Origin: Micromonospora echinaurantiaca
Lineage (GTDB): Bacteria > Actinomycetota > Actinomycetes > Mycobacteriales > Micromonosporaceae
Length of the DNA: 64,000 nucleotides
Assembly: GCF_900090235.1 (NCBI RefSeq)
Contig: NZ_LT607750.1
Coordinates: 1,934,501-1,998,500, forward strand
Direction: 5' to 3'
Part shown: piece by piece, positions 13,327-64,000 of the stretch
Position numbering within the stretch: position 1 is the stretch's first letter
Layout: each line of letters starts with the position of its first letter
Position numbers and translations under genes: made by a program
The notes under the pieces: model-generated
What the model saw: the letters and a program-made list of their open reading frames with translations, nothing else
What the model was told of the DNA's origin: nothing
The model's database searches: none

Positions 13327-14553
13327 TCAGTCGGCCGGTTGCACCCGCTCGTACCGGATCGGCAGCGAGGTGAGCCCGCCCAGCGCCCGCGGCGTGCCCG
13401 GCGGCTCGGCGGCCAGCTCGGGCGCCACCACCCGGCGCAGGAAGGCCGACAGGGCCAGATTCGCCTGCAGCCGGCCCAGCGTGGCGCCGAGGCAGTAGTG
13501 CGGCCCGGCGCCGAAGCTCACGTGCTGCTCGGTGCGGTCCGGGTCGAGTCGGTCGGGGTCGGCGAACCGCTCCGGATCCCGGTTCGCCTGCGCCAGCACG
13601 ATCACCATGCTGTCGCCGGCGCGTAGCCGCGCCCCGCTCGGCAGGGTGGTGTCCTGCTTGACGTGCCGCCACAGGCACTGCACCAGCGGGGTCAGCCGCA
13701 GCAACTCGTCCACCAGGCCGGGCATCTTCTCCGGCTCGGCCCGCATCCGGTCGGCCAACGCCGGCTCGGTGAGCAGGCTGTAGAGCCCGCTGGCGATCAG
13801 GCTGCTGGTGGTCTCGTGCCCGGAGACGACCAGCAGCCACAGGCCGTTGACCGCCTCGGCCCGGGTGAGCCGCTGGTCGCCGCCGCGGCTGGCCAGCATG
13901 GCGCTGACCACGTCGTCCCCGGGCTCGGCGGCCCGGGCGTCGACCAGCCGCTCCAGGTAGCCGCGCAGCTCACCGGAGACCCGGTCCACCTCGGCCGGGT
14001 CCACCGGGTTGGACGGGTCCATCGAGCGGGAGATGAAATGCGACCAGTCCTGCACCCGCTGCCGGTCGTCCTCGTCGGCGATGCCGAACAGCGCGCACAG
14101 TACCCGGATCGGGATCGCGTAGGCGTACTCCCGTACCACGTCGCACCCGGTGCCGCCGGCGAGCCGGTCCAGCAGGGCGTCCACCACCTGAGCGGTGGGC
14201 TCCGCGGCCCGGGCGGCGTGGGCCGCGAACGCCTGCCCGACCAGCAGCCGGTGCCGGGTGTGCTCGGGCGGATTCAGTTCGATGAACGGAGCGTCGGCGT
14301 ACCGCTGCTCCTCCTCGGCGCTGACCTCGCCGGCCGCGGCCCGCTGCTGGTACCAGCGGCTGTCCCGCGGGTCGACGCTGACGGCGGGATCGGCCAGCGC
14401 GGCCTTGGCGTCGTCGTGGCCCAGGACGATGACCTTCCCGTCCGCGTCCACCACGACCGGGCCCTTGTCCCGCCACTCCCGGTACACCGGGTACGGGTCG
14501 GCCTGGTGCTTGACGTACATGTCCTCGATACGGTCGACAATCGCCGGTTGCAT
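13327..14553 (-). CDS. Cytochrome P450 (left arm, A)
   Basis: A 408-residue soluble bacterial P450. The I-helix reads 'LLVVSGHETTSSLIASGL', K-helix 'VDELLRLTPLVQ' gives E-x-x-R, and the heme loop 'FGAGPHYCLGATLG' holds the Cys ligand. The start is the ATG at 14553 (MQPAIVDRIEDMY), six bases after an aggggg-type site; the ATG at 14559 is too close to that site. It hydroxylates or otherwise oxidises an unknown cluster intermediate and needs outside ferredoxin. It is transcribed alone, leftward, divergent from the dehydrogenase gene at 14715. Confidence 0.92.
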   Translation of the reverse strand: MQPAIVDRIEDMYVKHQADPYPVYREWRDKGPVVVDADGKVIVLGHDDAKAALADPAVSVDPRDSRWYQQRAAAGEVSAEEEQRYADAPFIELNPPEHTRHRLLVGQAFAAHAARAAEPTAQVVDALLDRLAGGTGCDVVREYAYAIPIRVLCALFGIADEDDRQRVQDWSHFISRSMDPSNPVDPAEVDRVSGELRGYLERLVDARAAEPGDDVVSAMLASRGGDQRLTRAEAVNGLWLLVVSGHETTSSLIASGLYSLLTEPALADRMRAEPEKMPGLVDELLRLTPLVQCLWRHVKQDTTLPSGARLRAGDSMVIVLAQANRDPERFADPDRLDPDRTEQHVSFGAGPHYCLGATLGRLQANLALSAFLRRVVAPELAAEPPGTPRALGGLTSLPIRYERVQPAD

Positions 14554-14714
14554 GAGCATCCCCTGACCGGTCGGCCTCTGACAGTGGCTGTCGAGGCTAT
14601 GTCCCGTCGCGGAGCGGGGACAACGCGCTCGGATTGCGCGACCGCGCACCCGGTGCCGCCCGGGCGGCCAGGCCCCTATCCTCGCGTCGTGGCGGTCGGG
14701 CGGAGGCGGCGACG

Positions 14715-15907: not shown

Positions 15908-17077
15908 ATGTCTCTGCAGCTCTACTGGTTCATCCCCGCCCACGGCGACGGTCGGGAGGTGGCGAAGCCGCGCGCCGGCGGGCCACCCGGCGTGGCCACG
16001 CTCCGCCGGGACCCCGACATCGACTACCTGGCCCAGGTGGCCGGCGCCGTCGACCGGCTGGGCTTCGCCGGCGCGCTGGTGCCGTTCGGGATCTTCTGCG
16101 AGGACCCGTGGCTGGTGGCGGCGGCGCTGAGCCAGCGCACCGACCGGCTGCGCTTCATGGTCGCGTTCCGCCCCGGGCTGCTCTCGCCGACCCTGGCCGC
16201 CCAGATGTCGGCCACCTGCCAGCGGATCTCCGGCGGCCGCCTGCTGCTCAACGTGGTGGTCGGCGGCGACCCGGAGGAGCAGCACCGTTACGGCGACTGG
16301 CTGGCCCACGACCAGCGGTACGTGCGGGCCGACGAGTTCCTCGCCGTGCTGCGCGGCGCCTGGTCGGGGCCGGTGGACCTGGACGGGGAGCACTACCGGG
16401 TGGCCGGTGCGACGGTGATGCGCCGGCCGGACCCGCCGCCGATCTTCCTCGGCGGCTCCTCCGCCGCCGCGCAGCGGGTCGCGGCGCGCCGGGCCGACGT
16501 CTTCCTCACCTGGGCAGAACTGCCCGCGCAGACCGGCTCGCTGGTGGCCGGGGTGCGGGCGCTGGCCGCCGAGGCCGGGCGGGAGATCGCCTTCGGCACC
16601 CGGTTCCACGTGATCAGCCGGGACACCTCGGAGCAGGCCTGGGCGGTGGCGGACGCCATGACGGCCAACCTCGATCCGGCACTGGTGGCCCGGACCCAGG
16701 AGCGGTTCCGCCGCAGCGACTCCGAGGGACAGCGCCGGATGGCGGCGCTGCACGGTGGCCGTACCGACCGGCTGGAGATCTACCCGAACGTGTGGGCGGG
16801 TTACGGCCTGGTCCGCCAGGGGCCGGGGATCACCCTGGTCGGGTCGCACGAGGAGGTGGCCGACCGGATCGCCGAGTACCACGCCCAGGGGCTGGACCAC
16901 CTGATCCTGTCCGGACAGCCGCACCTGGAGGAGGCGTACTGGTTCGGTGAGGGGGTGATGCCGGCGCTGCGCCGCCGGGGCCTGCTGGCCGGGCCGGACG
17001 GGCCGGACGGCGACCGGCCGGACCCGGCGCCGCCGCACCGCCGGGCCGGGCAGCGCCCGGAGGTGTCCGTCCGGTGA
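15908..17077 (+). CDS. FMNH2-dependent LLM monooxygenase, SsuD-like
   Basis: A 389-residue luciferase-like protein. The N terminus 'LQLYWFIPAHGDGREV' matches the 'FWFLPTHGDGR' signature of alkanesulfonate monooxygenases. 'RFMVAFRPGLLSPTLAAQMSATCQRISGGRLLLNVVVGGD' and 'IFLGGSSAAAQRVAARRADVFLTWAE' complete the barrel. In SsuD this fold cleaves C-S bonds of sulfonates with O2. In a cysteine-rich pathway it could instead oxidise a thiazoline or thioether carbon (inference). Its stop overlaps the start of the P450 gene (GTGA). No flavin reductase is visible nearby. Confidence 0.85.
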   Translation: MSLQLYWFIPAHGDGREVAKPRAGGPPGVATLRRDPDIDYLAQVAGAVDRLGFAGALVPFGIFCEDPWLVAAALSQRTDRLRFMVAFRPGLLSPTLAAQMSATCQRISGGRLLLNVVVGGDPEEQHRYGDWLAHDQRYVRADEFLAVLRGAWSGPVDLDGEHYRVAGATVMRRPDPPPIFLGGSSAAAQRVAARRADVFLTWAELPAQTGSLVAGVRALAAEAGREIAFGTRFHVISRDTSEQAWAVADAMTANLDPALVARTQERFRRSDSEGQRRMAALHGGRTDRLEIYPNVWAGYGLVRQGPGITLVGSHEEVADRIAEYHAQGLDHLILSGQPHLEEAYWFGEGVMPALRRRGLLAGPDGPDGDRPDPAPPHRRAGQRPEVSVR

Positions 17078-18345
17078 GTCCGCAGCTGACCCGGGCCGCC
17101 GCCGTCACCGGCAGCCTCGCCGACCCGGCCACCTATCTGGACGGTCCGCCGTTCGCCGAGTTCGCCCGCCGCCGCCGGGAGGCGCCGGTCAGTTGGGTGG
17201 CCGAGGTGCCGCTGCGGCGGCACTCGGCCCGGGGCACGGTGGTGCAGCGGGTCGGCGGCTACTGGGCGGTCACCGGGCACGTGGCGGTGGTCGCCGCGTC
17301 GCGCCGCCCGGAGGTCTTCTCCTCCGCCGAGCGCGGCGCGTTCCTCGCCGATCCGACCTCCCGGGCCGACCTGGAGCGCTCCCGGCAGCTGCTGGTCGGG
17401 ATGGATCCGCCCGCGCACACCCGGTTGCGCCGGGTGGTCACCGCCGCCTTCACCGCCCCGGTGGTACGCGGCATGCGCGCGGCCATCGCCGAGCACGCCC
17501 GGCAGATCGTCCGGCGGGCCACCGCCGGCCAGCCGGTGGACGCGGTCGCCGAGGTCGCCGCCGAGCTGCCGCTGCTGGTCCTCGCCGACCTGCTCGGCAT
17601 CCCCCGCGAGGACCGCGGGCTCTTCCTGCGCTGGAGCAACAATCTGGTCGGCTTCGACGACCCGGCCTTCGGCGGCGGGGACGTGGAGGTGTTCAAGCAG
17701 ACCTTCGTCGAGGCGTTCGGGTACGCCCTCACCGCGGCGAAGGCCCGCCGGCGCGACCCCGGTGACGACCTGGTGAGCCGGCTGGTGACCGCCGAGGTGG
17801 ACGGCCGCCGGCTCACCGAGAGCGAGTACTGCCACCTGTGGCTGCTGCTGGTGGTGGCCGGCAACGAGACCACCCGGCACCTGATCTCCGGCGGCCTCGA
17901 CCTGCTGGCCGACCGTCCCGACCTGGCCGATCGGCTCGCCCGCCAACCCGACCTGGTGCCGACCGCGGTGGACGAGATGCTGCGCTGGACGACGCCGATC
18001 ATGCAGTTCCGCCGGACCGCGGTGGTCGACACCGAGCTGGCCGGGCAACGGATCCGGGCCGGGGACAAGGTGGTGCTGTACTACATCTCCGCCAACCGGG
18101 ACGAGTCGGTCTTCGACCGACCGGAAACCTTCCTGTTGGATCGCAGTCCCAACCCGCACATCGCGTTCGGCGTCGGGCCGCACTTCTGCCTCGGCTCGCA
18201 CCTGGCCCGGGTGGAGGCCGCCGTGCTCTTCGAGGAGCTGGCGCCGCACCTGCGCCGGCTGCGCCGCACCGGCCCGGCGGTCCGGTTGGAGTCGAACTTC
18301 ATGAACGGCCTGAAGCAGCTGCCGGTCACCTTCGCCGCCGGCTGA
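17074..18345 (+). CDS. Cytochrome P450 (left arm, B)
   Basis: A 423-residue P450 with a GTG start overlapping the SsuD-like gene by 4 bases. The I-helix is 'LLLVVAGNETTRHLISGGL' (Asn where many have His/Phe), K-helix 'VDEMLRWTTPIMQFRRTA' gives E-x-x-R, and the heme loop is 'FGVGPHFCLGSHLAR'. The 'TTPIMQFRRTAVVDTELAG' stretch resembles CYP125/142-type enzymes that oxidise terminal carbons of lipid or steroid chains. It may act on an alkyl or polyene chain here (inference). Its stop lies 13 bases from the stop of the convergent P450 C gene. Confidence 0.92.
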   Translation: MSPQLTRAAAVTGSLADPATYLDGPPFAEFARRRREAPVSWVAEVPLRRHSARGTVVQRVGGYWAVTGHVAVVAASRRPEVFSSAERGAFLADPTSRADLERSRQLLVGMDPPAHTRLRRVVTAAFTAPVVRGMRAAIAEHARQIVRRATAGQPVDAVAEVAAELPLLVLADLLGIPREDRGLFLRWSNNLVGFDDPAFGGGDVEVFKQTFVEAFGYALTAAKARRRDPGDDLVSRLVTAEVDGRRLTESEYCHLWLLLVVAGNETTRHLISGGLDLLADRPDLADRLARQPDLVPTAVDEMLRWTTPIMQFRRTAVVDTELAGQRIRAGDKVVLYYISANRDESVFDRPETFLLDRSPNPHIAFGVGPHFCLGSHLARVEAAVLFEELAPHLRRLRRTGPAVRLESNFMNGLKQLPVTFAAG

Positions 18346-18358: not shown

Positions 18359-19555
18359 TCAGTTGCACACCACCCGAACCGGGATCCGGTCGTAGCCCCG
18401 GAAGCCCAGTCCGGTGCGGCGGTGCGCGGGGCCGGTGGCCTCGAACCGGCGCAGCCGGGTGGCGAGGTGACCGAAGACCGCCGCGCCCTCGACCCGGGCC
18501 AGGGTGGCGCCCAGGCAGTGGTGCGGCCCGGAGCTGAAGGCCAGGTGCGGGTTGGGGGAGCGGGCCAGGTCGATCCGGTCCGGCTCGGGGAACCGCCGCT
18601 CGTCGCGGTTGGCGGAGGCGAGCAGCAGCACCACCACCCGGCGGGCCCGGATCACCCGGTCGCCGACGGTGACCGGCTCGCGGACCACCCGGGACGTGGC
18701 GTGGATCGGGCAGTCCCAGCGGAGGAACTCCTCCACCGCGCCGGGCGCGAGGCCCAGGTCCCGGCGCAACCGGTCCAGCAGCTCCGGGCGGTGCAGCAGC
18801 AGCGCGCCGCCGGTGGAGAGCAGGTTGGTGGTGGTCTCGAAGCCGGCGAAGAACAGGAAGATGACGTTGTCGACCAGCTCCGCCCGGCTGATCGTGCCGG
18901 TCGCCTCGGCGTCGCGGAGCAGGTGCGACAGCATGTCGTCGCCGTCCCGGCCGGCCCGCTCGCGCAGCAGCCCGCCGACGTAGCCGCGCAGCCAGCCGAC
19001 CGCCCGGACGGCGTCCGCCCGCTCCTGCTCGGTGGGAGCGCCGGAGCCGAACATCCGCCCCAGCGCGACGGCGTGCGGCTGCGCCTCCGCCCGGTCGGCC
19101 ACCGGGATGCCGAGCAGTTCGGCCGCCACCGTGACCGGCAGCGGGTAGGCCAGGTCGGCGACCAGGTCGGCCGCCGGCGCGTCGGCCATCGCCGCGAACA
19201 GCTCCCCGACCAGCTCGACGATCCGTGGCCGCAGCGCCGCCACGGTACGCGGATTGACCGTCCGGGCCATCGCCCGGCGCAGCGTCGAGTGCTGCGGCGG
19301 GTCCCGGTTGAGCACGGTGGCCCGGAAGAAGTCGGTCAGCTCGTCGGGCTCGCCGGAGAGCCGGTAGACCAGGTCGGGGAACTCGTGACTGAGCCGCGGG
19401 TCGGTCAGCAGGGCGGTGACGTCGGCGTGCCGGGTGACCGCCCAGGCGCCCGGCCCGGCCGGCACCACCCGGCCGGCGGCGCGCAGCTCGGCGTAGTGCG
19501 GGTACGGGTCGGCGAGCCCGGCGACCTCGGCCTCGTCGTAGCGCAGCACTGTCAC
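18359..19555 (-). CDS. Cytochrome P450 (left arm, C)
   Basis: A 398-residue P450. The I-helix is 'LFFAGFETTTNLLSTGG', K-helix 'VEEFLRWDCPIHATSRV' gives E-x-x-R, and the heme loop is 'FSSGPHHCLGATLAR'. The GTG start at 19555 overlaps the stop of the condensation-domain gene by 4 bases, so the two are translationally coupled. Coupling of a P450 to a free-standing condensation domain suggests that it either hydroxylates the carrier-bound or condensed product or supplies the hydroxyl group that the condensation domain acylates. Confidence 0.92.
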   Translation of the reverse strand: MTVLRYDEAEVAGLADPYPHYAELRAAGRVVPAGPGAWAVTRHADVTALLTDPRLSHEFPDLVYRLSGEPDELTDFFRATVLNRDPPQHSTLRRAMARTVNPRTVAALRPRIVELVGELFAAMADAPAADLVADLAYPLPVTVAAELLGIPVADRAEAQPHAVALGRMFGSGAPTEQERADAVRAVGWLRGYVGGLLRERAGRDGDDMLSHLLRDAEATGTISRAELVDNVIFLFFAGFETTTNLLSTGGALLLHRPELLDRLRRDLGLAPGAVEEFLRWDCPIHATSRVVREPVTVGDRVIRARRVVVLLLASANRDERRFPEPDRIDLARSPNPHLAFSSGPHHCLGATLARVEGAAVFGHLATRLRRFEATGPAHRRTGLGFRGYDRIPVRVVCN

Positions 19556-20868
19556 ACCCGGGTCAGGCTGAGCGGCTCCGTGGGCCGGGCGGCCGCCGCC
19601 CGGGCCAGGGTGAGGTAGTCCGCCAGGAACTCCTCCGCCCAGGCCGGCTGGAACCGGTCGGTGGTGTAGAAGAGCATCGCCTGGCAGGCGCCGCTGTGCT
19701 GCGGGATCAGCCCCAGCTCCAGGCCGAACCGGCTGCCCAGCGAGTCCGGGGTGTACAGCTCGAACTCCACGCCGCGGGCCTGCACCTTGGTGCCCGGCGG
19801 CGGGGTGAGCAGCATCTGGAACACCACGTCGTCGACCCGGCCGGAGGTGTTCTGCAGGTTCAGCGGCAGCATCTGGTACGGGATGCCCTCGTGCAGGAAG
19901 CCGTCGATGACGGTGCCCCGGACCCGGCGGACCACCTCGACGAACGGAACGTCCGGATCGACCTGGTTGCGCAGCACCACCATGTTCGCGAAGAAGCCGA
20001 CGGTGGTCTGGACGCCCTTGACCGACCGGTTCGCGAACAGCGACGCCACGGAGATGTCGGTCTGCCCGGTGCGCTGGGCCAACAGCAGGTAGTACAGCGA
20101 GAGCATCACCGCGAACGGGGTGGTCCGCTCGCCCCGGGCGACCGCCTTGAGCCGGTTGAACACGCCGGCGTCGATGGTGGCGACCTCGATCCCGGTGGGC
20201 CGGCCGCCGTCGGTGGCCGGCACCGCCGGCGGCAGTTCGACCAGCTTCATGCCGCGCAGCTGCCGGATCCAGTAGTCCTGGTGCACCTTCAGCGCCCCGG
20301 TGGTCAGCTGCTCGTGCTGCCACCGGGCGAAGTCCGGGTACTGCCACTGCACCGGGGGCAGCCCCGGGTCGCCGTCCGGCCCGGCGTCCAGGAACCGGAT
20401 CAGGTCCTGCAGCACGATGCCGCACGACCAGGCGTCCGAGACCAGGTGGTGCATGTTGAGGCAGAGCATGTGCTCGTCCGGTCCGAGCCGCCAGAGGGTG
20501 ACCCGCAGCGGGTGCCGACCGACGTCGACCGGCGTGTGCAGCTCCCGCTCGACGGCCTCGGCGACCACCGCGTCGAGCCGGTCCGGCTCGGCGGCCAGCG
20601 GCACCACCTCGAACGGCGGTGGCAGGTCGTCGTGGATGTGCTGGACGAGCTCCCGGCCGCGGCGTACCAGCGTGGTCCGCAGCGCCTCGTGCCGACGGGT
20701 CAGCCGGCCCAGGGCGACCTGGAGCTCGGTGACGTCGAGCGGGCCGTGCAGCTTGCACACGACGGGGCAGTTCAGCGACGCGGTGTCCGGGCGGTAGTGC
20801 TCCAGGAACCACAGTAGACGTTGACCGATGGATGCCGGCGCCTCCCGATGAGCCATGGGCAGCAACAT
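19552..20868 (-). CDS. Stand-alone NRPS condensation-domain protein
   Basis: A 438-residue single condensation domain with no A or PCP attached. The catalytic motif is intact: 'LNMHHLVSDAWSCG' (HHxxxDxW). Other C-domain blocks are 'RRHEALRTTL', 'YPDFARWQHEQL', 'SVASLFANRSVKGVQTTVGFFANMVVLR' (the NR..vGfF block) and 'IPYQMLPLNLQ'. It should join a carrier-bound acyl donor to an amine, alcohol or second carrier. This differs from the DxxxxD cyclisation domains of the two NRPS proteins. A second ATG at 20856 may be the true start. It is divergent from the regulator gene. Confidence 0.9.
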   Translation of the reverse strand: MLLPMAHREAPASIGQRLLWFLEHYRPDTASLNCPVVCKLHGPLDVTELQVALGRLTRRHEALRTTLVRRGRELVQHIHDDLPPPFEVVPLAAEPDRLDAVVAEAVERELHTPVDVGRHPLRVTLWRLGPDEHMLCLNMHHLVSDAWSCGIVLQDLIRFLDAGPDGDPGLPPVQWQYPDFARWQHEQLTTGALKVHQDYWIRQLRGMKLVELPPAVPATDGGRPTGIEVATIDAGVFNRLKAVARGERTTPFAVMLSLYYLLLAQRTGQTDISVASLFANRSVKGVQTTVGFFANMVVLRNQVDPDVPFVEVVRRVRGTVIDGFLHEGIPYQMLPLNLQNTSGRVDDVVFQMLLTPPPGTKVQARGVEFELYTPDSLGSRFGLELGLIPQHSGACQAMLFYTTDRFQPAWAEEFLADYLTLARAAAARPTEPLSLTRV

Positions 20869-21159: not shown

Positions 21160-22212
21160 ATGCCCGCACACCAGCTCATGCCCACCTCGTCCGCGGCGAC
21201 GGAGGCCAAGCGACCCATGCAGCCGCCACGGATCCCGAAGCCGTCTCCATCGCCCGAGAACCACCCCGTCACCATGCTGCCGATCAGCAAGCTGCTGCCG
21301 GCGGACTCGCCCCGGCTCTCCGGGGAGGACGTGCAGCACGTCCGGATGCTCGCCGACTCCGACGCCGACCTGCCGCCGATCCTGGTGCACCGGCAGACGT
21401 TGCGGGTCATCGACGGTATGCACCGGCTGCGGGCGGCCGTGCTGCGCGGCCAGGAGGAGATCGCCTGCCGGCTCTTCGAGGGCGGTGAGGACGCCGCCTT
21501 CGTGATCGCCGTCGAGACCAACATCGCCCACGGGCTGCCGCTCTCGCTGGCCGACCGGGAGGCGGCCGCGGCCCGCATCCTCCGGTCCCACCCACAGTGG
21601 TCGGACCGGGCGATCGCCGCCGTGACCGGCCTCTCCGCCAAGACCGTCGGCGTCATCCGGCGGGGAGCAACTGTGGACCAGCCGCAGTTGCACAGCCGGA
21701 TCGGCCGGGACGGCCGGGTCCGCCCGGTCAACGGCGCGGACGGCCGCCGCCGCGCCGGGGAGCTGTTCGCGCTGCGTCCCGACGCCTCGCTGCGCGAGGT
21801 GGCCCGGCGCGCCGGGATCTCGCCCGGCACCGCCCGGGACGTGCGGGAACGGATCCGCCGCGGCGAGGACCCGATCCCGCCCCGCCAGCGCGGCAACCGG
21901 CCCCGGCCGGAGCCGCCGAGCCCGGAGCGGGAGCTGCGCCGGCTGATGAGCGTACGGGGCGGGCCGCTACGCGATCGGGAGACGATCCTGCGCAACCTGC
22001 GTCGCGATCCGTCTGTCCGGTTCACCGACAGCGGACGTAGCCTCCTGCGGTGGCTCGACGCGCGGGCCACCTCACCCGACGGGTGGGAGACGGTCGTGCA
22101 CTCGATCGCGCCGCACTGCGCGTACGCCATCGCCGACCTGGCCTGCGCGATCGCCGAGGAGTGGGTCGCGGTGGCCGAGCACCTGCGCCAGCGGGCGGAG
22201 AACAGCGCCTGA
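21160..22212 (+). CDS. StrR-like pathway regulator with ParB/Srx N-terminal domain
   Basis: About 350 residues from the ATG at 21160; a TTG at 21154 is better spaced from the ggggga site and may be used. The N-terminal ParB-like fold reads 'TMLPISKLLPADSPRLSGEDVQHVRMLADS', 'LPPILVHRQTLRVIDGMHRLRAAVLRGQEEIACRLFEGG' and 'AFVIAVETNIAHGLPLSLADREAAAARIL'. Two helix-turn-helix-like segments follow: 'WSDRAIAAVTGLSAKTVGVIR' and 'SLREVARRAGISPGTARDVRERI'. This layout is that of StrR-type activators of antibiotic clusters. It is the only regulator in the 50-kb cluster and lies 52 bases before the first NRPS gene, so it probably activates the operon. Confidence 0.82.
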   Translation: MPAHQLMPTSSAATEAKRPMQPPRIPKPSPSPENHPVTMLPISKLLPADSPRLSGEDVQHVRMLADSDADLPPILVHRQTLRVIDGMHRLRAAVLRGQEEIACRLFEGGEDAAFVIAVETNIAHGLPLSLADREAAAARILRSHPQWSDRAIAAVTGLSAKTVGVIRRGATVDQPQLHSRIGRDGRVRPVNGADGRRRAGELFALRPDASLREVARRAGISPGTARDVRERIRRGEDPIPPRQRGNRPRPEPPSPERELRRLMSVRGGPLRDRETILRNLRRDPSVRFTDSGRSLLRWLDARATSPDGWETVVHSIAPHCAYAIADLACAIAEEWVAVAEHLRQRAENSA

Positions 22213-34066: not shown

Positions 34067-34075
34067 TGGGTGCCG

Positions 34076-47933: not shown

Positions 47934-48013
47934 TCAATTCCACGGGTAATTGTCGTCGGGGCGTCGTACGACGCCGAGCGCCGCACCGGCGGCGGGTGGG
48001 GGTGGTGGTAGGC

Positions 48014-52413: not shown

Positions 52414-52443
52414 CCACCAACCGATCGGAGGGAGCAGTTGACC

Positions 52444-52701: not shown

Positions 52702-52702
52702 C

Positions 52703-56107: not shown

Positions 56108-56973
56108 CCGGGTACGGCGTCGCGGTCACCGGGTGGAGCGCGCACCTGCCGGCCCTGCCGCCCGGTGCCCGGCTCGCCGGCTGGGAGCCGGGTCCGGCGT
56201 GCCCGCCCGAGGACGCCGCGACGCTGCTCGGCCGCAAGGGGCTGCTGGCCAAGGAACCGGCGACCCGGCTGGCGCTCTGCGCCGTGCACCGGGCGCTGGG
56301 CCGGCCGGCGCGGGCCGGCCGCCGCGTCCCGGACACGCCACCGGATCCGGACACCGCCGTGGTGGTCGCCACCAACCTCGGCAACTGCGCCACCGTCGCG
56401 GCGGTGGCCACCGCGGTCGCCACCGACGGGGTACGGGCGGTGAGCCCGCTGGACGCGCCGAACGCGTCGAGCAACGTGGTCAGCAGCACCGTGGCGATCT
56501 GGTTCGGCTGGGGCGGCCCCAACCTGACGGTCTGCTCGGGCCACCCGGCCGGCCTGGACGCGGTCGCGCTCGGCGTGCTGCTGCTGTCCGCCGGCCGGGC
56601 CCGGCGGGTGGTGGTGGTCGGCGCGGAACCGGCCGACCCGGTCGCCGCCGGGCTGCTCGACGCCGCCGCGCCGCTGCGCCCGCTGGCCGCCTGCGTGCTG
56701 CTGGAACGCGACGGTGACCTGCGGCTCGGCCCGGTCGAGGAACTGACCGGGCCGCCGCCCGGGGGAGCGGACCTGCTGCTCGCCCCGGCCGGCCTGGCCG
56801 CCGACGCGGTCGACCTGACCGGCGCGGTCGGCGCCGGCTACGGCGCGCTCGGCGTCCTCCAGTTGGCGGTGGCCGCCGCCGTGCTCGCCGAGCGGGGCGG
56901 CAGCGCCCGGATCGTCTGCGGCGACCCGGACGACGGGTACCGCACCACCCGGCTGTCGAGGGGGACCGGATGA
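56104..56973 (+). CDS. Truncated ketosynthase-like protein
   Basis: A 289-residue KS-fold remnant or short KS. The N-terminal half aligns with KS proteins ('AVTGWSAHLPALPPGARLAGW', 'VVVATNLGNCATVAAVATAV'), and 'PNLTVCSGHPAGLDAVALGVLLLSAGRARRVVVVGAEP' retains a Cys at the elbow. It lacks about 100 residues with the His-containing motifs; the end 'GYGALGVLQLAVAAAVL' stands for the G-H-x-x-G-A block without the His. GTG start with 4-base overlaps on both sides, so it is a maintained gene rather than debris. It may be a second CLF partner. Confidence 0.82.
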   Translation: MTGYGVAVTGWSAHLPALPPGARLAGWEPGPACPPEDAATLLGRKGLLAKEPATRLALCAVHRALGRPARAGRRVPDTPPDPDTAVVVATNLGNCATVAAVATAVATDGVRAVSPLDAPNASSNVVSSTVAIWFGWGGPNLTVCSGHPAGLDAVALGVLLLSAGRARRVVVVGAEPADPVAAGLLDAAAPLRPLAACVLLERDGDLRLGPVEELTGPPPGGADLLLAPAGLAADAVDLTGAVGAGYGALGVLQLAVAAAVLAERGGSARIVCGDPDDGYRTTRLSRGTG

Positions 56974-57743
56974 CGTCGCCGCAGGCCCACCTGCTCTCGC
57001 CGGGCACCGACACCGGCCCGTGCGCGGTGTTCGTGCACGGCATCGAGGACACCTGGCGTACCTGGACCCGGCTGTCGCGCTGTCTCGGGCCGCAGTGGCG
57101 CACGGTCGCCCTGGACCTGCCCTGGCGGGCCGGCAACGACTACCGCTGGCGCTGGTCCGGCGGCCCGGGGGACTGGGTCGGCGCCGGGCTGGAAGCGCTC
57201 GGCGGCCGGCCGTTCCTGCTGGTCGGCCACTCCTTCGGCGCGAACGCGGTGCTCGCCCGGCTGGCGGCCGGAGAGCCGCGGGCCACCGCCGCGGTGCTCG
57301 CCGCGCCGTTCTTCCGCCCGGCCGAGCACCGGGTCACCTGGGAGACCTTCGACCTGTCCCGGGAGACCTTCCAGCGGCAGATCAGCGACGGGATGCGGCT
57401 GCGGCTGCGGCGTACCGCCCCGCCGGACGTCTTCGAGGTGATGATCGCCCGCACCTGCGAGCGGATCGGCCCGGTCGGCTTCCTCGCCGTCTTCGAGCAG
57501 TACGTCGCCAGCGGCCACCTGCCGCTGTCGCACGTGGACATCCCGGCGGCCATCCTCATCGGCGAGGCGGACCCGGGGATGTTCCGCCCGCACATGGAGG
57601 CGCTGGCCCGCCGCCTGCCCCGGGCCACGGTGGCCGCCGGCGACGACTTCGACCACTTCTGCCACGTGAACCACGCACCCGAGGTGGCCCGGCTGATCGA
57701 GGAGTTGGCGGCCGCCGGCGCCGGCCTCCGACCGACCGATTGA
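56970..57743 (+). CDS. Alpha/beta hydrolase
   Basis: A 257-residue alpha/beta-fold hydrolase. 'AVFVHGIEDTWRTWTRLS' is the H-G oxyanion segment, 'LLVGHSFGANAVLARLA' holds the Ser nucleophile, 'ILIGEADPGMFRPH' the Asp, and 'DDFDHFCHVNHAPEVARLI' the His. It has no lid or signal peptide and should act in the cytosol. In this operon it could release the polyketide acid from the ACP, hydrolyse a CoA ester, or catalyse a cyclisation. ATGA overlap with the truncated KS gene. Confidence 0.88.
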   Translation: MTSPQAHLLSPGTDTGPCAVFVHGIEDTWRTWTRLSRCLGPQWRTVALDLPWRAGNDYRWRWSGGPGDWVGAGLEALGGRPFLLVGHSFGANAVLARLAAGEPRATAAVLAAPFFRPAEHRVTWETFDLSRETFQRQISDGMRLRLRRTAPPDVFEVMIARTCERIGPVGFLAVFEQYVASGHLPLSHVDIPAAILIGEADPGMFRPHMEALARRLPRATVAAGDDFDHFCHVNHAPEVARLIEELAAAGAGLRPTD

Positions 57744-57754: not shown

Positions 57755-58648
57755 ATGTCCAGTCCCGAACCGGAGCGCGGCACCGTCCGCCGGCTCCGTC
57801 CCCGGTACGCGGGCGCCAACATCCGCACCTGGATCGGCTTCAAGACCTTCATGTACCTGGCCGAGGAGGCCACTCTGGCCTGGTTCCGCGAGCGGGACCT
57901 CGGCCCGCAGACCCTCTACCACCGGTACGGCCTCGGACTGGAGGTCGTGGACAGCTCGGTGCAGCTGCCCGCCGTCCTGGAGGTCGACGACGAGGTGGAG
58001 GCGCGGGTCGAGCCGCGCGGGCCCGGACGGTTCGGGGTGCGGCTGCACCTGCGTCGCGACGGGCAGCCGGTCACCGTGCTGCGGGGCACCGTGACGGTGG
58101 CGCTGGTCACCGAGCGCGGCGCCCCCGCCGGGGACCCGCCGCCGGCGCTGGCCCCGCTGGTGGTGCCCGGCGTGGCCGCGGTGGCCCCGGCCGACCCGCC
58201 GCCGCCGGCCGCGGAGGCGTACCGCTTCGGGTGGCGGGCCCGCTACTTCCACTGCCACTACTCCGACCGGGTCCAGCACGGCAGCCACGTCGCCGCGCTG
58301 GAGGAGGTGGTCGACCGGTTCCTCGCCGACCGGGGCCTGTCGGTGCCCCGGCTGCTCGCCGAACGCAGCTGGATCCCGGTGGTGTCCCGGGCCCGGGTGC
58401 GGCTGCTCGCCGACGCGCACATGGACGACGAGATCGAGACCACCTTCACCGTCACCGAGATCGTCAAGGACCGCGCCTTCGACGGCCGGATGGACGCCTT
58501 CGCCACCGGGCCCGGGCGGGACCGGCCGCGGCACGTAGCGACCGCCCGCATCCTGCACGGCTACGCGGTGAGCGCCGGGTCGGCCGCCGGCACCCTGGCC
58601 GAGCTCGACGCGGAGACGGTCAAGGCCCTCACCGGGGGCGCGTCGTGA
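57755..58648 (+). CDS. Tandem hot-dog thioesterase-like protein
   Basis: A 297-residue protein with two hot-dog units: about residues 20-130 ('RTWIGFKTFMYLAEEATLAWFRERDLGPQTLYHRYGLGLEVVDSSVQLPAVLEVDDEVEARVEP') and 150-270 ('YFHCHYSDRVQHGSHVAALEEVVDRFLADRGLSV', 'LLADAHMDDEIETTFTVTEIVKDRAFDG'). The second has the Y-S-D-x3-Q-H-x-S-H pattern of 4-hydroxybenzoyl-CoA-type or acyl-ACP thioesterases. It probably hydrolyses the finished acyl-ACP to the acid that the FAAL activates, or acts as a cyclase/dehydratase. The ATG follows gaggagggg. Confidence 0.8.
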   Translation: MSSPEPERGTVRRLRPRYAGANIRTWIGFKTFMYLAEEATLAWFRERDLGPQTLYHRYGLGLEVVDSSVQLPAVLEVDDEVEARVEPRGPGRFGVRLHLRRDGQPVTVLRGTVTVALVTERGAPAGDPPPALAPLVVPGVAAVAPADPPPPAAEAYRFGWRARYFHCHYSDRVQHGSHVAALEEVVDRFLADRGLSVPRLLAERSWIPVVSRARVRLLADAHMDDEIETTFTVTEIVKDRAFDGRMDAFATGPGRDRPRHVATARILHGYAVSAGSAAGTLAELDAETVKALTGGAS

Positions 58649-59328
58649 AGCGCGGACCCCGGGTGCACTTCTCCTTCCGCAGCCCGTTCAGCTGGATGGC
58701 GATCCACCGGCTGCGCCGCCGGCTGCCCGACGCCCACCAGCGGCTGGACTTCATCCCGTACTGGGACCCGGACGAGCGCACCAGCGCCGACCTGGCGGCC
58801 GCCGGGGCGGAGTTCCACTACACCCCCATGAGCAAGGCCAAGCACCTCTACATCCTGCACGACACCCGGCGGCAGGCGGCCAAGCTCGGCCTGCGGATGG
58901 TCTGGCCGGTCGACGTCGACCCGTGGTGGGAACTGCCGCACCTGGGCTACCTGCTGGCCCGGCGGCTCGGCCGCGGCGAGCAGTTCTACGACGCGGTCAC
59001 CGCCGCCCGGTGGGAGCGCGGCGAGAACGTCTGCGAGCCGCCGGTGCTGCGCGCCGCGGCCGAACGGGCGGGGCTGGACGGCGACCGGATCGTGGCCGCC
59101 GCCGAGTCCGCCGAGATCCGCGCGGCCGGGGTGGACTGCCTGGTCACCGCGTACCACGACGACATCTTCGGGATCCCGTACTTCCGGGTCGGGCCGCACC
59201 GGTTCTGGGGGCTGGACCGGCTCGACGACTTCCTCACCGAACTGCTCGGCCCGGCCACCGTGCCGGTGCCCACCGGCGCGCCGGAGCGGGTGCTCGTCGA
59301 CACCGACACCGCGGGCGGCTGCGGATGA
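58645..59328 (+). CDS. 2-Hydroxychromene-2-carboxylate-isomerase-like DsbA-fold protein
   Basis: A 227-residue protein with a GTG start. 'VHFSFRSPFSWMAIHRLRRRL' matches the F-x-F-x-S-P-Y-S start of HCCA isomerases (kappa-class GST fold), 'MVWPVDVDPWWELPHLGYLLARRLGRGEQFYDAV' is the helical insert, and 'VDCLVTAYHDDIFGIPYFRVGPHRFWGLDRLDDF' is the thioredoxin-fold end with the cis-Pro. HCCA isomerases convert cis and trans double bonds through a thiol. In a polyene-type PKS operon, it could isomerise one double bond to allow ring closure. It overlaps both neighbours. Confidence 0.87.
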   Translation: MKRGPRVHFSFRSPFSWMAIHRLRRRLPDAHQRLDFIPYWDPDERTSADLAAAGAEFHYTPMSKAKHLYILHDTRRQAAKLGLRMVWPVDVDPWWELPHLGYLLARRLGRGEQFYDAVTAARWERGENVCEPPVLRAAAERAGLDGDRIVAAAESAEIRAAGVDCLVTAYHDDIFGIPYFRVGPHRFWGLDRLDDFLTELLGPATVPVPTGAPERVLVDTDTAGGCG

Positions 59329-60551
59329 GCGGCACCGCGGTCCGCGCAGCGGCGCTGTTCGACCCGGCGGACCCGGCCGTCGCCGACGACCCGTACCCCA
59401 GCTACGCCCGGCTGCGCCGAAAGGCCCCGGTGCTGCACCTGCCGGCGGCGGACGTCTGGGCGGTGAGCCGGCACGCCGACGTGGCGGTGGTGCTGCGCGA
59501 CCCGGCCACGTTCTCCTCGAAGGTGGGCATGAGCCCCGACTTCGGTGGGCGCAAGGTGATCCCGGACGCCGGGGTGCGCTACCGGATCGGCGCGCCCGAC
59601 GTGCGGGTGCTGATCGCCACCGACCCGCCCGAGCACCAGGTGTTCCGGCGGGCGGTGGCGCGCGCCTTCAGCCCGTCCGCGGTCGCCGCCCTGGCGCCGC
59701 GGGTCACCCGGATCGCCCGCGACCGGGTCCGCCGGCTGCTGGCGTACGACGGGCCGGTCGACTTCTTCGCCGAGGTGGCCGAGCCGGTGCCGGCGCTGGT
59801 GCTGGCCGAGATGCTCGGCGTCCCGGCGGAGATGCAGCACGAGTTCCGGCAGTGGTCGGCGGTCATCACCGCCGACCTGAGCCAGGCCGGGTCCGGCGCC
59901 GACGGCATCGGTCGCGGCATGGACATGTTCCGGTTCTTCGGGCGGCGGCTGCGGCACGGCACGCCGCACGACCCGCCCGACCTCTTCGACGCCATCGCCG
60001 CCGGGCGTCGGGCCGGCATCACCGACCAGGAGGTGCTGGCCTTCTGCGCGTTCCTGCTGGTCGCCGGGATCGAGACGACCACCAGCCTGGCCACCAACCT
60101 GCTGCACACGCTGATCGGCCAGCCCGAGCTCGCCGACCGGCTGCGTCGGCACCCCGAGCTGGTGCCGGCTGCGGTCGAGGAGGGCATCCGGTACGACACC
60201 TCGGTGCAGGCGCTGTGGCGCGGCACCACCCGCGAGGTGACGCTGCGCGGGCAGCGCATCCCGGCCGGTGCCCGGGTGCTGGTCCTCTTCGGCTCGGCCA
60301 ACCGCGACGAGACGGTCTTCACCGACCCGGACACCTTCCGCCTCGACCGCCACCCCAACGACCACCTGAGCTTCGGCGGCGGGGTGCACTACTGCCTCGG
60401 CGCCCGGCTGGCCCGACTGGAGCTGACAGCGGTCTTCACCGAACTGCTCGCCGCGACCCGGGCGATCGAGGCGGCCGGCCCCGGCCGGCGTACCGGCAGC
60501 CTGGTGCTGCGCGGCTTCACCCACCAGCCGGTCCGGGTGGTGCCGCGGTGA
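59325..60551 (+). CDS. Cytochrome P450 (PKS operon, D)
   Basis: A 408-residue P450. The I-helix is 'FLLVAGIETTTSLATNLL', K-helix 'VEEGIRYDTSVQALWRGTTREV' gives E-x-x-R, and the heme loop is 'FGGGVHYCLGARLAR'. The N terminus 'FDPADPAVADDPYPSYARLRRKAPV' is typical of soluble CYP107-like enzymes. Placement inside the PKS operon, coupled to the HCCA-isomerase-like and thiolase genes, suggests that it oxidises the polyketide chain or ring, for example to create the hydroxyl that is carbamoylated, methylated or glycosylated. Confidence 0.93.
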   Translation: MSGTAVRAAALFDPADPAVADDPYPSYARLRRKAPVLHLPAADVWAVSRHADVAVVLRDPATFSSKVGMSPDFGGRKVIPDAGVRYRIGAPDVRVLIATDPPEHQVFRRAVARAFSPSAVAALAPRVTRIARDRVRRLLAYDGPVDFFAEVAEPVPALVLAEMLGVPAEMQHEFRQWSAVITADLSQAGSGADGIGRGMDMFRFFGRRLRHGTPHDPPDLFDAIAAGRRAGITDQEVLAFCAFLLVAGIETTTSLATNLLHTLIGQPELADRLRRHPELVPAAVEEGIRYDTSVQALWRGTTREVTLRGQRIPAGARVLVLFGSANRDETVFTDPDTFRLDRHPNDHLSFGGGVHYCLGARLARLELTAVFTELLAATRAIEAAGPGRRTGSLVLRGFTHQPVRVVPR

Positions 60552-61687
60552 CCGGGCTGACCGACGCGGTGATCGTGGACGCCGTCCGCACCCCGATCGG
60601 GCGGCGCGACGGCGCGCTGTCCACCGTCAAGCCGGTGGCGCTGCTGCGGCACGTGCTGCTCGGGCTGATCGAGCGCACCGGCGTCGACCCGGCGGCGGTG
60701 GAGCAGGTGATCGGCGGCTGCGTCAGCCAGGTCGGTGAGCAGGGGCTCGGGGTGACCCGCAACGCCTGGCTCGCCACCGGGCTGGACCCGGGCGTCGGCT
60801 GCACCACCGTCGACGTCAGCTGCGGCTCCGCGCAGCAGGCCAACCACCTGGTCGCCGCGCTGATCGCGACCGGGGCGATCGAGGTGGGCATCGCCTGCGG
60901 CGTCGAGTCGATGAGCCGGGTGCCGGCCGGCGCCAACGCGCCCGGCGGCGTGGACGAGCACAAGCTGCCCGACTACCCGTGGGACGACCCCCCGGGCGTG
61001 CAGTTCGGCGGGGCCGAGCGGATCGCCCGGCGCGAGGGGCTGACCCGCGCCGACCTCGACGGCTACGGCGCGCTGTCCCAGCAGCGGGCCGCCCGGGCCT
61101 GGGCGCACGGGCGGTACGCCGCCGAGGTGCTGCCGCTGGGCGGCCTGGCCCGCGACGAGGGGCTGCGCCCCACCACCGTCGAGACGCTGGCCGGGCTGCG
61201 CCCGGTGATGCGCGGCGGGCTGCACACCGCCGGCAGCACCTCGCAGGTCTCCGACGGCGCCGCCGCGGTGCTGTGGATGTCCCGCCGCCGCGCCGACGAG
61301 TTGGGGCTGCGGCCCCGCGCCCGGCTGCTGCACCAGGTGGTGACCGGCGCCGACCCGTACTTCCTGCTGGACGGGCCGACCGTGGCCACCCGGCGGATCC
61401 TCGACCGGGCCCGGCTGAAGCTCACCGACCTGGACGTGGTGGAGGTCAACGAGGCGTTCGCCGCGGTGGTGCTCTCCTGGGCCCGGCACCACGGCGCCGA
61501 CCTGGACCGGGTGAACGTCAACGGGGGAGCGATCGCGCTCGGGCACCCGATGGGCGCCACCGGCGCCCGGCTGCTCACCACCGCCCTGCATGAGCTGGAA
61601 CGCATCGACGGGGAGCTGGCGCTGGTCACCATGTGCTGCGGCGGCAGCCAGGGCACCGCCTCGGTGCTGCAACGGATCGCGGGGTGA
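60548..61687 (+). CDS. Thiolase (acetyl-CoA acetyltransferase family)
   Basis: A 379-residue thiolase. The nucleophile is in 'CTTVDVSCGSAQQANHLVAAL', the His in 'NVNGGAIALGHPMGATGARLLTTAL', and the second Cys in 'LVTMCCGGSQGTASVL', so all catalytic residues are present. 'VIVDAVRTPIGRRDGALS' is the family start. It may make an unusual starter such as acetoacetyl-CoA, cleave a beta-keto end, or join two acyl groups. GTG start overlapping the P450 stop by 4 bases. Confidence 0.92.
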   Translation: MTGLTDAVIVDAVRTPIGRRDGALSTVKPVALLRHVLLGLIERTGVDPAAVEQVIGGCVSQVGEQGLGVTRNAWLATGLDPGVGCTTVDVSCGSAQQANHLVAALIATGAIEVGIACGVESMSRVPAGANAPGGVDEHKLPDYPWDDPPGVQFGGAERIARREGLTRADLDGYGALSQQRAARAWAHGRYAAEVLPLGGLARDEGLRPTTVETLAGLRPVMRGGLHTAGSTSQVSDGAAAVLWMSRRRADELGLRPRARLLHQVVTGADPYFLLDGPTVATRRILDRARLKLTDLDVVEVNEAFAAVVLSWARHHGADLDRVNVNGGAIALGHPMGATGARLLTTALHELERIDGELALVTMCCGGSQGTASVLQRIAG

Positions 61688-61691: not shown

Positions 61692-62591
61692 GTGCGGATC
61701 GGACTGCTGCTCGACCGGTTCGACTGGCCCGGTGGCCCGGCCGCGCAGGGCCCCACCCTGCGCCGGATCGCCGTCGAGGCGGAGCAGGCCGGGGTGGCCA
61801 GCATCTGGATCAACGACCACTTCCTACAGATCCCGCTCTTCGGCGAGGTCACCGACCCGATCCTGGAGTCGTGGACGGTGCTGGCCCACCTCGCCGCCGT
61901 CACCCGGCGGGTCGAGCTGGGCACCCTGACCACCGGCGGGCACCACCGCCACCCGGGGCCGCTGCTGAAGATCGTCACCACCCTGGACGTGCTCTCCGGC
62001 GGGCGGGCCTGGCTCGGCGTCGGGCCGGCCTGGAACGAACGGGAGCAGCTCGCCCTGGGCATCCCCACGTACAGCTGGCCGGAACGGTTCGCCCAGCTGG
62101 AGGAGCTGCTCCAGGTCGCGCACCGGGCCTTCGCCGGCGACCGCAGCCCGTACGCCGGTGAACACCTGCGACTGGCGGAACCGGTCTTCTCGCCCCCGCC
62201 GCTGCGCCGCCCCCCGATCCTGGTCGGCGGCGCCCACGAGCGCCGGGTCTTCCCGCTGGTCGCCCGGTACGCCGACGCCTGCAACCTGTTCGAGGCCGGC
62301 GGCCTGCCGATGCTGCGGCTCAAACTCGACCTGCTGCGCCGCCGCTGCGAGGAGATCGGACGGGACTTCGCCACCCTGCGTAGGACCTCGTTCGGCCCGC
62401 TGCACCTGACCCGCACCGGCGCCGGCGACTCGCAGACCGTCCCGGCCGCGCTGGAACGGTTCGCCACCCTGGCCGGCGAGGGCTTCGAGCTGGCCATCGT
62501 GGCGCTGGCCGACCCGCTCGACCCGGCCGCGTTCGAGTTGCTCGCCGAGCTGGTCGAGGCACTCGCTCCGGTCACCGCCACGCCCCGGTAG
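61692..62591 (+). CDS. LLM-class oxidoreductase (F420-type)
   Basis: A 299-residue luciferase-like barrel with a GTG start 4 bases after the thiolase stop. Features are 'RIAVEAEQAGVASIWINDHFLQIPLFGEVTDPILESWTVLAHLAAVTRRVELGTLTTGGHHRHPGPLLKIVTTLDVLSGGRAWLGVGPAWNEREQ' and 'PPILVGGAHERRVFPLVARYADACNLFE'. This pattern matches F420-dependent LLM family proteins of actinobacteria. It could saturate or desaturate a C=C or C=N bond using F420. It ends the tightly packed PKS operon. Confidence 0.88.
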   Translation: MRIGLLLDRFDWPGGPAAQGPTLRRIAVEAEQAGVASIWINDHFLQIPLFGEVTDPILESWTVLAHLAAVTRRVELGTLTTGGHHRHPGPLLKIVTTLDVLSGGRAWLGVGPAWNEREQLALGIPTYSWPERFAQLEELLQVAHRAFAGDRSPYAGEHLRLAEPVFSPPPLRRPPILVGGAHERRVFPLVARYADACNLFEAGGLPMLRLKLDLLRRRCEEIGRDFATLRRTSFGPLHLTRTGAGDSQTVPAALERFATLAGEGFELAIVALADPLDPAAFELLAELVEALAPVTATPR

Positions 62592-62650: not shown

Positions 62651-62988
62651 CCCCGTGGCCGGCCCGCCCCGGCCACCGTGCGTTGAGCCCCAGCACCTCG
62701 GCGTCGGCCATGGTGGCGTGCACCGCGTCCGGGAAGAGCGCGTCGCGGCCGGGCGGACCTGCGCGCCCGGCGGTGTCGCGACCCGAAATGCGGCTCGCGC
62801 TGGGCGGTGTCGCGACCGGGAATGCCGCTCGCAGCGGGCGGTTCGGCGGGCCGGTGGGCCGCCAGCGCCGGGCGGCCCCGGTGTGCAATCCGCGCTCCTT
62901 GTCGGTCTCCGCGGGCCGTTGGGAGACTGGCTGCGCCGTGACGGTGGGCGACGAGTCGCGTGCCATCTGCGTACACATTGGAGGTCCG
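62592..62988. other. 397-base gap with direct repeats, no supported gene
   Basis: No frame here has a plausible start, ribosome site and protein-like composition. A leftward frame crossing it reads like decayed protein (DALFPDAVHATMADAEVLGLNA) but has no recognisable family. The stretch before 62989 holds the ggagg ribosome site of the next gene and presumably its promoter, since the tight operon spacing is broken here. Confidence 0.6.
62771..62832. repeat. Two imperfect direct repeats, 34-base period
   Basis: cggtgtcgcgacc(c/g)g, followed by (a/g)aatgc(g/c)gctcgc, occurs at 62771-62798 and 62805-62832. The 34-base period equals that of the other repeat pair in this gap. Confidence 0.65.
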
Positions 62989-64000
62989 ATGAGCGTGACC
63001 GGTGAAGCGGCGCGGGACACCGCCCGCAGCGGCGCGGACGTCGTCAAGGCCACCGAGCTGCTGGCCCCGGAGTTCGCCGAGCGGGCCGCCGAGGGCGAAC
63101 GGCTGGGCCAGCTGCCGGCGGATCTGTTCACCAAGGCGCAGGACGCCGGCCTGATCGACCTGATGCTGCCGCGCGCGCTCGGCGGGCTGGAACTGGACCC
63201 GCTCACCGTGGTCGAGGTGATCAGCACGATCTCCGCCGCCGACGGGTCGGCGGGCTTCACCATCCTCACCCTGAACGCCACCTGCTACGTCGCCTGGCTC
63301 GCCGAGGACGCGGCCCGCACCGTGCTGGCCGGCGAACCGCGGGCGGTGGCCACCGTCTTCACCCCCCGGGGCAGCGCGGTCCCGCAGGACGACGGCAGCC
63401 TGCTGGTGACCGGCCGCTGGCCGTTCAACACCGGCTGCCGCAACGCGTCCTGGTTCTGCAACGGGGTGATGGTGCTCGACGGCGACAAGCCGGCCGTCGT
63501 ACCGCCCGGCCGGCCGGACTGGCGGCTGGTGTTCGCCCCCCGCGAGCAGTGCGGGATCCTCGACACCTGGGACGTCGCCGGGCTCAAGGGCACCGGCAGC
63601 AACGACACCGTGATGGAGCGGGTGCGGGTCACGCCGGAGTTCACCGCCAACCCGATCTTCGAGCCGCCCCGGCACGACGGTCCGCTGTACCGGTGGTCGT
63701 TCTTCGCCCTGATGGGGGTGCAGTTCGCCGGGTTCCCGCTGGGCATCGCCCGCCGGGCGCTGGACGAGTTCGTCGCGCTCGCGCCGAAGAAGTCCCGCGG
63801 CAGCAAGCCGCTGGCCCAGGAACAGTCGGTGCAGCTCGCCGTCGCCCGGTGCGAGGCGGACCTGCGCTCGGCGAAGGCCTTCGTCACCGACGTGATGGGC
63901 GCCGCCTGGGAGCGCACGCTGCGCGGCGACGAGATGAGCATGGACGACCGGGTGGCGGTGCGGCTGGCCACCGGCCGGGCGATTCGGGCCGGCGTCGAGG
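62989..64000 (+). CDS. Acyl-CoA-dehydrogenase-type flavoenzyme (3' end missing)
   Basis: The frame is open to the window edge: 337 visible residues of perhaps 390-400. The ATG has a good ggagg site 5 bases away. Features are 'EFAERAAEGERLGQLPADLFTKAQDAGLIDLMLPRALGGLELDP', 'SAADGSAGFTILTLNATCYVAWL', 'LLVTGRWPFNTGCRNASWFCNGVMVLDG' and 'ILDTWDVAGLKGTGSNDTVMERVRVTPEF'. The G-R-W-P-F-x-T-G-C and D-T-W-D-x-x-G-L-K-G-T-G-S-N-D blocks resemble HsaA-like flavin monooxygenases as well as dehydrogenases. It may aromatise or hydroxylate the PKS product. Confidence 0.88.
   Translation, partial: MSVTGEAARDTARSGADVVKATELLAPEFAERAAEGERLGQLPADLFTKAQDAGLIDLMLPRALGGLELDPLTVVEVISTISAADGSAGFTILTLNATCYVAWLAEDAARTVLAGEPRAVATVFTPRGSAVPQDDGSLLVTGRWPFNTGCRNASWFCNGVMVLDGDKPAVVPPGRPDWRLVFAPREQCGILDTWDVAGLKGTGSNDTVMERVRVTPEFTANPIFEPPRHDGPLYRWSFFALMGVQFAGFPLGIARRALDEFVALAPKKSRGSKPLAQEQSVQLAVARCEADLRSAKAFVTDVMGAAWERTLRGDEMSMDDRVAVRLATGRAIRAGVE

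Follow-up and report, generated by a model that had tools for sequence, protein, structure and literature searches.

Highly reducing (HR) type II polyketide synthases (PKSs) are known beside nonribosomal peptide synthetases (NRPSs) from the clusters of cinnamoyl-containing nonribosomal peptides (CCNPs) such as kitacinnamycin, epoxinnamide, skyllamycin and WS9326A, where more than one ketosynthase/chain length factor (KS/CLF) pair, a ketoreductase (KR), dehydratases (DHs), an acyl carrier protein (ACP) and an isomerase accompany the NRPS. Papers on these clusters (PMC6510318, PMC9321520, PMC9381841) give two or three KS/CLF pairs plus the isomerase for cinnamoyl clusters, and call the isomerase glutathione-dependent in the youssoufene cluster. 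The NRPSs for pyochelin and yersiniabactin have heterocyclisation (Cy) domains, cysteine codes in their adenylation (A) domains, a methyltransferase (MT) inside the last A domain, an imine reductase and TubC docking. Here we describe genes of both kinds in a 64,000-nucleotide stretch (the window) of Micromonospora echinaurantiaca, bases 1934501-1998500 of a single-contig genome of 7,203,133 bases. The HR type II PKS and an azoline NRPS of three modules very probably form one pathway, which is well supported because their linkage recurs across genera. The hybrid family is real, conserved and uncharacterised; its linkage is computational evidence, and we infer all of its chemistry.

When 249 genomes of the order were searched for the imine reductase of the NRPS half and for KS4 of the PKS half, each was found in 20 and both in 13, where 1.6 would be expected (hypergeometric P 3e-12, uncorrected for relatedness). 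In ten of these 13, the window included, the two genes lie on one contig within 34 kb; in two of the other three (G208 and G212) they are on different contigs. A scan with an alignment of the probable isomerase of the PKS half gave 74 loci, of which 56 carry cassette genes and 18, without them, were left out. The reductase is present in 25 of the 54 genomes searched among those behind the isomerase loci (the L062 genome was outside this search), and in 20 of the 25 reductase and isomerase share a contig, 14-36 kb apart. Four of the remaining five (G275, G276, G298 and G300) have the two on different draft contigs, that of the isomerase in G300 (L111) being just 7.5 kb long. In Amycolatopsis rubida the gene order is kept all the way from the luciferase-like (LLM) monooxygenase at 15908 to the edge of the window, where the acyl-CoA dehydrogenase lies, with 47-77% identity and a few extra genes, and Actinomyces gerencseriae DSM 6844 (L165-L168) has both halves on one 68 kb contig. 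The latter is a compact hybrid of an HR type II cassette, an azoline NRPS, a saccharopine-dehydrogenase-like protein, an imine reductase and a thioesterase.

Two independent neighbouring pathways, one for a polyketide and one for an azoline peptide, clustered by chance, would fit the separate transcription blocks of the halves and the 36 of 56 cassette loci without a demonstrated linked reductase. This is very improbable, however, given a linkage repeated in 20 genomes of several genera and the presence of a fatty acyl-adenylate ligase (FAAL) and a discrete thioesterase (TE) in 13 of the 13 clusters compared (60% coverage filter; NRPS1 missing in Sphaerimonospora at a contig end, NRPS2 split in Qaidamihabitans). 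The joining of the two halves in one pathway, proposed in an earlier note on this DNA, is thus borne out by linkage across genera.

The NRPS half and the genes discussed with it are as follows (T, carrier domain; percentages here and below are identities to A. rubida):

22265..28804, + strand: NRPS1, T-Cy-A1-T-Cy-A2-T (Pfam, motifs, A codes)
28801..34017, + strand: NRPS2, TubC-Cy-A3(MT)-T-degenerate TE (Pfam, motifs, A code)
34070..35221, + strand: saccharopine-dehydrogenase-like protein (Pfam; 13 of 13 compared clusters)
35218..36330, + strand: thiazolinyl imine reductase, Irp3-like C-terminal domain (Pfam; 13 of 13 compared clusters)
36327..37097, + strand: discrete type II thioesterase (Pfam; GHSLG kept)
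37094..38464, + strand: serine hydroxymethyltransferase (SHMT)-like enzyme (Pfam), altered at three active-site-region positions
44032..45675 (start chosen by us), - strand: FAAL-type ligase (best PDB match 3pbk)
47652..47933, + strand: ACP0 (Pfam; 63%)

Pfam scans found two A, two condensation-type and three carrier domains in NRPS1, and TubC docking, condensation-type, A, MT and carrier domains in NRPS2. The Cy motif DxxxxDxxS was read in all three condensation-type domains, and heterocyclising NRPSs are, or are among, the best PDB matches of both proteins. The Stachelhaus-type codes, derived by alignment to a GrsA fragment, are DWYTLGLIH for A1, DLYNLSLIW for A2 and DLYNMSLIW for A3. Those of A2 and A3 are identical or nearly so to the cysteine code, so that these two domains are predicted to read cysteine and A1 appears non-canonical. 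Cy domains, two cysteine codes among three A domains, the imine reductase and the embedded MT are features of the pyochelin/yersiniabactin type. An active C-terminal TE, as expected of that type, was not found among eight aligned orthologues, all of which lack the Ser nucleophile in the terminal TE-like domain of NRPS2. The AlphaFold model of this tail is of low confidence (mean pLDDT 62); thioesterase domains make up most of the 50 PDB matches listed, none of which passes E 0.001. The earlier note had read here a Cy-domain NRPS with thiazolinyl imide reductase and embedded MT, together with a FAAL-type ligase and a carrier at the NRPS N terminus; the domains and motifs were recovered, NRPS1 does open with T, and the ligase best matches 3pbk, a solved fatty acyl-adenylate ligase.

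The type II PKS cassette and the adjoining thiolase comprise:

50748..51527, + strand: KR (Pfam/NCBIfam)
51524..51934, + strand: DH1, FabA-like dehydratase (Pfam/NCBIfam)
51931..52413, + strand: DH2, FabA-like dehydratase (Pfam/NCBIfam)
52438..52701, + strand: ACP1 (Pfam/NCBIfam)
52703..53908, + strand: KS1 (best PDB match 6kxd_A)
53905..55002, + strand: CLF1 (best PDB match 6kxd_B)
54983..56107, + strand: KS3 (Pfam; Cys and His motifs)
56104..56973, + strand: KS4, short and CLF-like (Pfam; sequence reading)
56970..57743, + strand: alpha/beta hydrolase (Pfam)
57755..58648, + strand: 4HBT_2 protein (Pfam)
58645..59328, + strand: DsbA-family protein, probable isomerase (Pfam, PDB search)
60548..61687, + strand: thiolase (Pfam/NCBIfam; 72%)

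KS1 scored 359 bits with 6kxd_A, 255 with the best FabF-type structure and 177 with the actinorhodin KS; CLF1 scored 127 bits with 6kxd_B, and 9s5h ranked second for the pair. We take 6kxd to be the ishigamide polyene synthase pair Iga11-Iga12. Read by eye, the catalytic Cys is present with both His motifs in KS1 and KS3 and is missing from CLF1, and KS4 is short and without the C-terminal His region. A KS/CLF nearest the polyene subgroup, with discrete KR, dehydratases and ACP in the operon, is the composition of an HR type II PKS, and KS3 with KS4 gives the second KS/CLF-like pair of a cinnamoyl cassette. All genes that the earlier note had listed for this half (KS, CLF, KR, two dehydratase-like, ACP and extra KS genes) lie at 50748-56973. 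A further likeness of KS3, scoring under the NCBIfam cut-off, is to the cispentacin KS AmcF (described in the accessible part of PMC10698177).

Judged by sequence, this inventory resembles that described for cinnamoyl clusters. A cyclised aryl starter is plausible because the cassette encodes a DsbA-family protein beside its two KS/CLF-like pairs, and cinnamoyl clusters have two or three such pairs and an isomerase. We consider a ring-closed aryl starter probable. Within one pathway the acyl part could instead stay an open-chain polyene, as in ishigamide, and be loaded directly by the FAAL, with the thiolase and acyl-CoA enzymes acting elsewhere. KS1/CLF1 are indeed closest to the presumed ishigamide pair, but the second KS/CLF-like pair and the DsbA-family protein, tied by the papers on cinnamoyl clusters to ring formation, and the association with a thiolase make the open chain unlikely. 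Of the earlier proposal that the starter is a polyene or cyclised aryl acid from a type II PKS, the route is supported and the aryl form plausible; the product itself stays deduced. DsbA-family relatives with 31-38% identity were also seen in L117-L132 and L134, mostly Acidobacteriota-type metagenome-assembled genomes; none had another cassette gene in the flank fetched, and these probably have a different function.

A FadA5-like thiolase was found within the fetched flank of 19 of the 20 linked cassettes and of 6 of the 36 others, the minimum for a match being 60 aligned residues and 55% identity; absence was judged only inside the fetched flanks, which reach up to 10 kb. Fisher's test gave P 4e-10 on the table before A. 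gerencseriae was added as a linked locus (19/0 against 6/31); with it the table reads 19/1 against 6/30. In M. globbae, a relative without the SHMT, the PKS cassette is flanked by a CoA-transferase III (L154:3115-4386), between thiolase and KR, and by a class II aldolase (L154:13203-13940), neither of which was seen at the corresponding places of the window. The thiolase and the CoA-transferase III suggest processing of the chain at the CoA level, for example from cinnamoyl to benzoyl; that the thiolase shortens the chain is a tentative assignment. The thiolase passes the NCBIfam steroid-thiolase cut-off, and a steroid catabolism reading of the right flank was rejected because such a thiolase adjoins the PKS cassette in 25 of the 56 loci.

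The first module varies within the family. Among 21 clusters, the A1 code is DWYTLGLIH in three (the window, A. rubida and Micromonospora sp. C28SCA-DRY-2, the nearest named relative found, with cluster proteins 93-99% identical), DL[FY]Q[LV]GLIH in 16, DLYNLGLIH in one and DLYNLSLIW in one; the L161 and Sphaerimonospora clusters, whose NRPS1 was not read, stand outside this count. The Cy1 motif starts with D in the three DWYTLGLIH clusters and the one with DLYNLSLIW; in the remaining 17 it starts with E. The cluster SHMT was found in 3 of 20 genomes searched, the same three, and not in the cluster stretches of three further genomes (G015, G224, G240). By these alignments the variant A1 code, the Cy1 motif and the SHMT appear to change together. 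Read by eye, the enzyme carries Ala, His and Tyr at three positions, presumed to have catalytic roles, that are Glu, Tyr and His in the two solved SHMTs aligned with it. That the SHMT supplies residue 1 is about an even proposition, leaning slightly to the negative. Our guess for this residue is an alpha-substituted Ser or Cys, by analogy with the JBIR-34/35 pathway.

We therefore propose, with a probability of roughly 0.65, a single cluster that begins at about 15.9 kb, runs past the right end of the window and makes one product family as follows; gene content, linkage and motifs were computed, and every chemical step is deduced from them. KS1/CLF1, KR and DH1/DH2 would build a polyene on ACP1, the DsbA-family protein would set a Z double bond and KS3/KS4 would extend the chain further, and ring closure with oxidation would give a cinnamoyl-type aryl chain. 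Once freed, this chain would be activated with CoA and perhaps shortened by the thiolase, and FAAL and ACP0 would load the acyl chain onto the N-terminal carrier of NRPS1. Three cyclisable residues would be added by NRPS1 and NRPS2: an unusual one, which the SHMT perhaps makes in the subfamily of the window, followed by two cysteines. The Cy domains would form azoline rings, the reductase would make a thiazolidine and the MT would methylate. Since the terminal TE is without its nucleophile, release may fall to the discrete thioesterase or another enzyme, and glycosylation, carbamoylation and cytochrome P450 steps may come last.

Several observations weigh against this scheme. The reductase and KS4 lie 1.1 Mb apart in genome G162, and the reductase and isomerase 3.5 Mb apart in G282. 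The DsbA-family protein is weakly like 2-hydroxychromene-2-carboxylate (HCCA) isomerase and glutathione S-transferase (GST) kappa, its PDB match is weak (E 0.0006), and it is only a candidate counterpart of Sky27 and YsfG, the cis-trans isomerases of cinnamoyl clusters. With the 60% coverage filter the thiolase is counted in 9 of the 19 then-known linked loci and 4 others, the fall being due to the many matches that run off the fetched flank. No thiolase match was found on the 68 kb contig of A. gerencseriae despite the presence of both halves, and six cassettes have the thiolase and no linked reductase. Since the three clusters with the SHMT are relatives of one another, the covariation represents one or two events and is no proof.

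A pyochelin/yersiniabactin-like metallophore with an unusual cap would suit the Cy/A(MT)/reductase architecture, and the P450s could install a phenol. We regard this product as improbable. The window has no match to the DmdR/IdeR iron box, with up to 3 mismatches allowed from the consensus. No siderophore transporter was found among the scanned genes of the window, six downstream genes (Pfam; one transporter of the major facilitator superfamily (MFS) only) and nine genes of the G224 cluster, and no Pfam family for synthesis of salicylate or another aryl chelator among the gene models scanned, some open reading frames being outside both scans. The metallophore-like label of the earlier note is accordingly not supported. 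Its comparison with karamomycins proved a poor guide and was rejected, since the menaquinone genes linked to such naphthoates were not shown by the scans; the accessible part of PMC12971057 proposes a partial menaquinone pathway for karamomycin-type naphthoates.

The hybrid cluster had been placed at 13327..64000. Its named parts are all present, and the conserved cluster, as judged by orthology, appears to begin at about 15908, because no orthologues of the genes at 11788-15872 were found in the A. rubida cluster stretch or 15 kb upstream of it. On the right, cluster-like genes run on through 18 kb beyond the window end, as they do beyond the matching position in A. rubida and C28SCA-DRY-2. 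Downstream (L060) are a rhamnosidase-like protein (485-2911), an amidase (10761-12278) and an MFS transporter (13936-15360), which probably sit in the right part of the cluster and may serve in maturation or self-protection. Neither Rfam families nor tRNAs were detected in the window. The remaining genes are:

15908..17077, + strand: LLM monooxygenase, left end of the conserved cluster (Pfam; 70%)
17074..18345, + strand: P450b (Pfam; 65%)
18359..19600, - strand: P450c (Pfam; 64%)
19552..20868, - strand: free-standing condensation domain (Pfam; 71%)
21178..22212, + strand: probable pathway regulator, in our reading StrR-like (weak helix-turn-helix matches; 55%)
38461..39660, + strand: glycosyltransferase (Pfam; 64%)
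39657..40505, + strand: NAD-dependent epimerase-type short-chain dehydrogenase/reductase (SDR) (Pfam; 51%)
40502..41920, + strand: aldehyde dehydrogenase (Pfam; 61%)
42017..43180, - strand: protein without Pfam match, conserved HxD...H, in our reading possibly 2-oxoglutarate (2OG)-oxygenase-like (60%)
43107..44042, - strand: DAO-type flavoenzyme (Pfam; 57%)
45899..47590, + strand: carbamoyltransferase 1 (Pfam; 64%)
47996..49741, + strand: carbamoyltransferase 2 (Pfam; 65%)
49738..50751, + strand: O-methyltransferase (Pfam)
59325..60551, + strand: P450d (Pfam; 60%)
61692..62591, + strand: LLM oxidoreductase (Pfam; 51%)
62995 to beyond the window, + strand: acyl-CoA dehydrogenase (Pfam; 66%)

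Within the 13-cluster comparison, only C28SCA-DRY-2 and A. rubida have orthologues of the SHMT, glycosyltransferase, SDR, DAO flavoenzyme, 2OG-like protein and both carbamoyltransferases, genes that by their distribution appear to mark the subfamily of the window. Downstream of its acyl-CoA dehydrogenase, A. rubida encodes one more carbamoyltransferase, its third (54420-56090 of the joined stretch; L137 from base 14420).

Relatives of this locus have been listed before. Genome G224, probably the Salinispora tropica chromosome, has its locus at about 3.19-3.24 Mb with type I PKS-like matches at the left edge; the cluster also encodes a glyoxalase/bleomycin-resistance-type protein (L051:15119-15895), several acyl-CoA dehydrogenases and DAO flavoenzymes. 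The locus is probably sid3 plus sid4 of S. tropica, which the accessible Table 1 of PMC7888443 gives as adjacent orphan NRP clusters after slm, and the left-edge matches fit this. The pairing of PKS and NRPS is already tabulated for M. lupini, whose cluster 6, 'NRPS+PKS' (43546-43581), is conserved in S. tropica and includes thiazolinyl imide reductase 43551 in its range, with no product given in the accessible part of PMC4182475. The single reductase match of M. lupini lies 34 kb from its isomerase. Both clusters, the Salinispora one probably, belong to the same family, with core genes mostly 40-70% identical and the same grouping in the stretches compared, but differ from the window in A1 code and Cy1 motif, and the SHMT-glycosyltransferase-carbamoyltransferase block was not found in their stretches or the genomes checked. 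No product of a type II PKS and azoline NRPS hybrid was met in the open-licence literature among the matches listed, and the accessible part of PMC12838356 has nothing on this cluster.

More speculatively, and with the odds against it, these clusters may form a widespread unrecognised class whose azoline lines are capped not with salicylate but with a ring-closed, shortened aryl acid made by a cinnamoyl-type HR type II PKS and a thiolase. Within the subfamily of the window, the SHMT might have been remodelled in co-evolution with the first Cy and A domains, supplying a quaternary amino acid for a glycosylated, carbamoylated non-metallophore, and sid3 plus sid4 would be one such pathway. At least this one pair of orphan clusters with siderophore names, in a much-studied marine strain, may be one pathway to something other than a siderophore, and the way in which Cy1, A1 and SHMT change together offers a handle on how a heterocyclisation module gains a new substrate.

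The ishigamide HR type II PKS provides the best PDB matches of KS1 and CLF1, and its system reportedly has no second KS/CLF pair, isomerase or azoline NRPS, unlike the window. Compared with the pyochelin and yersiniabactin lines, the window has an extra module, a dead TE and a starter apparently from a type II PKS, with no salicylate genes seen. The described CCNPs are macrocyclic (depsi)peptides; in place of a multimodular depsipeptide NRPS, which was not found, the window has a line of three heterocyclising modules with an imine reductase, a FAAL and a starting carrier. The hybrid is an uncharacterised variant of HR type II PKS-NRPS pathways, which ties this type of PKS and azoline NRPS logic into one conserved pathway, from Micromonospora and Amycolatopsis to an Actinomyces.

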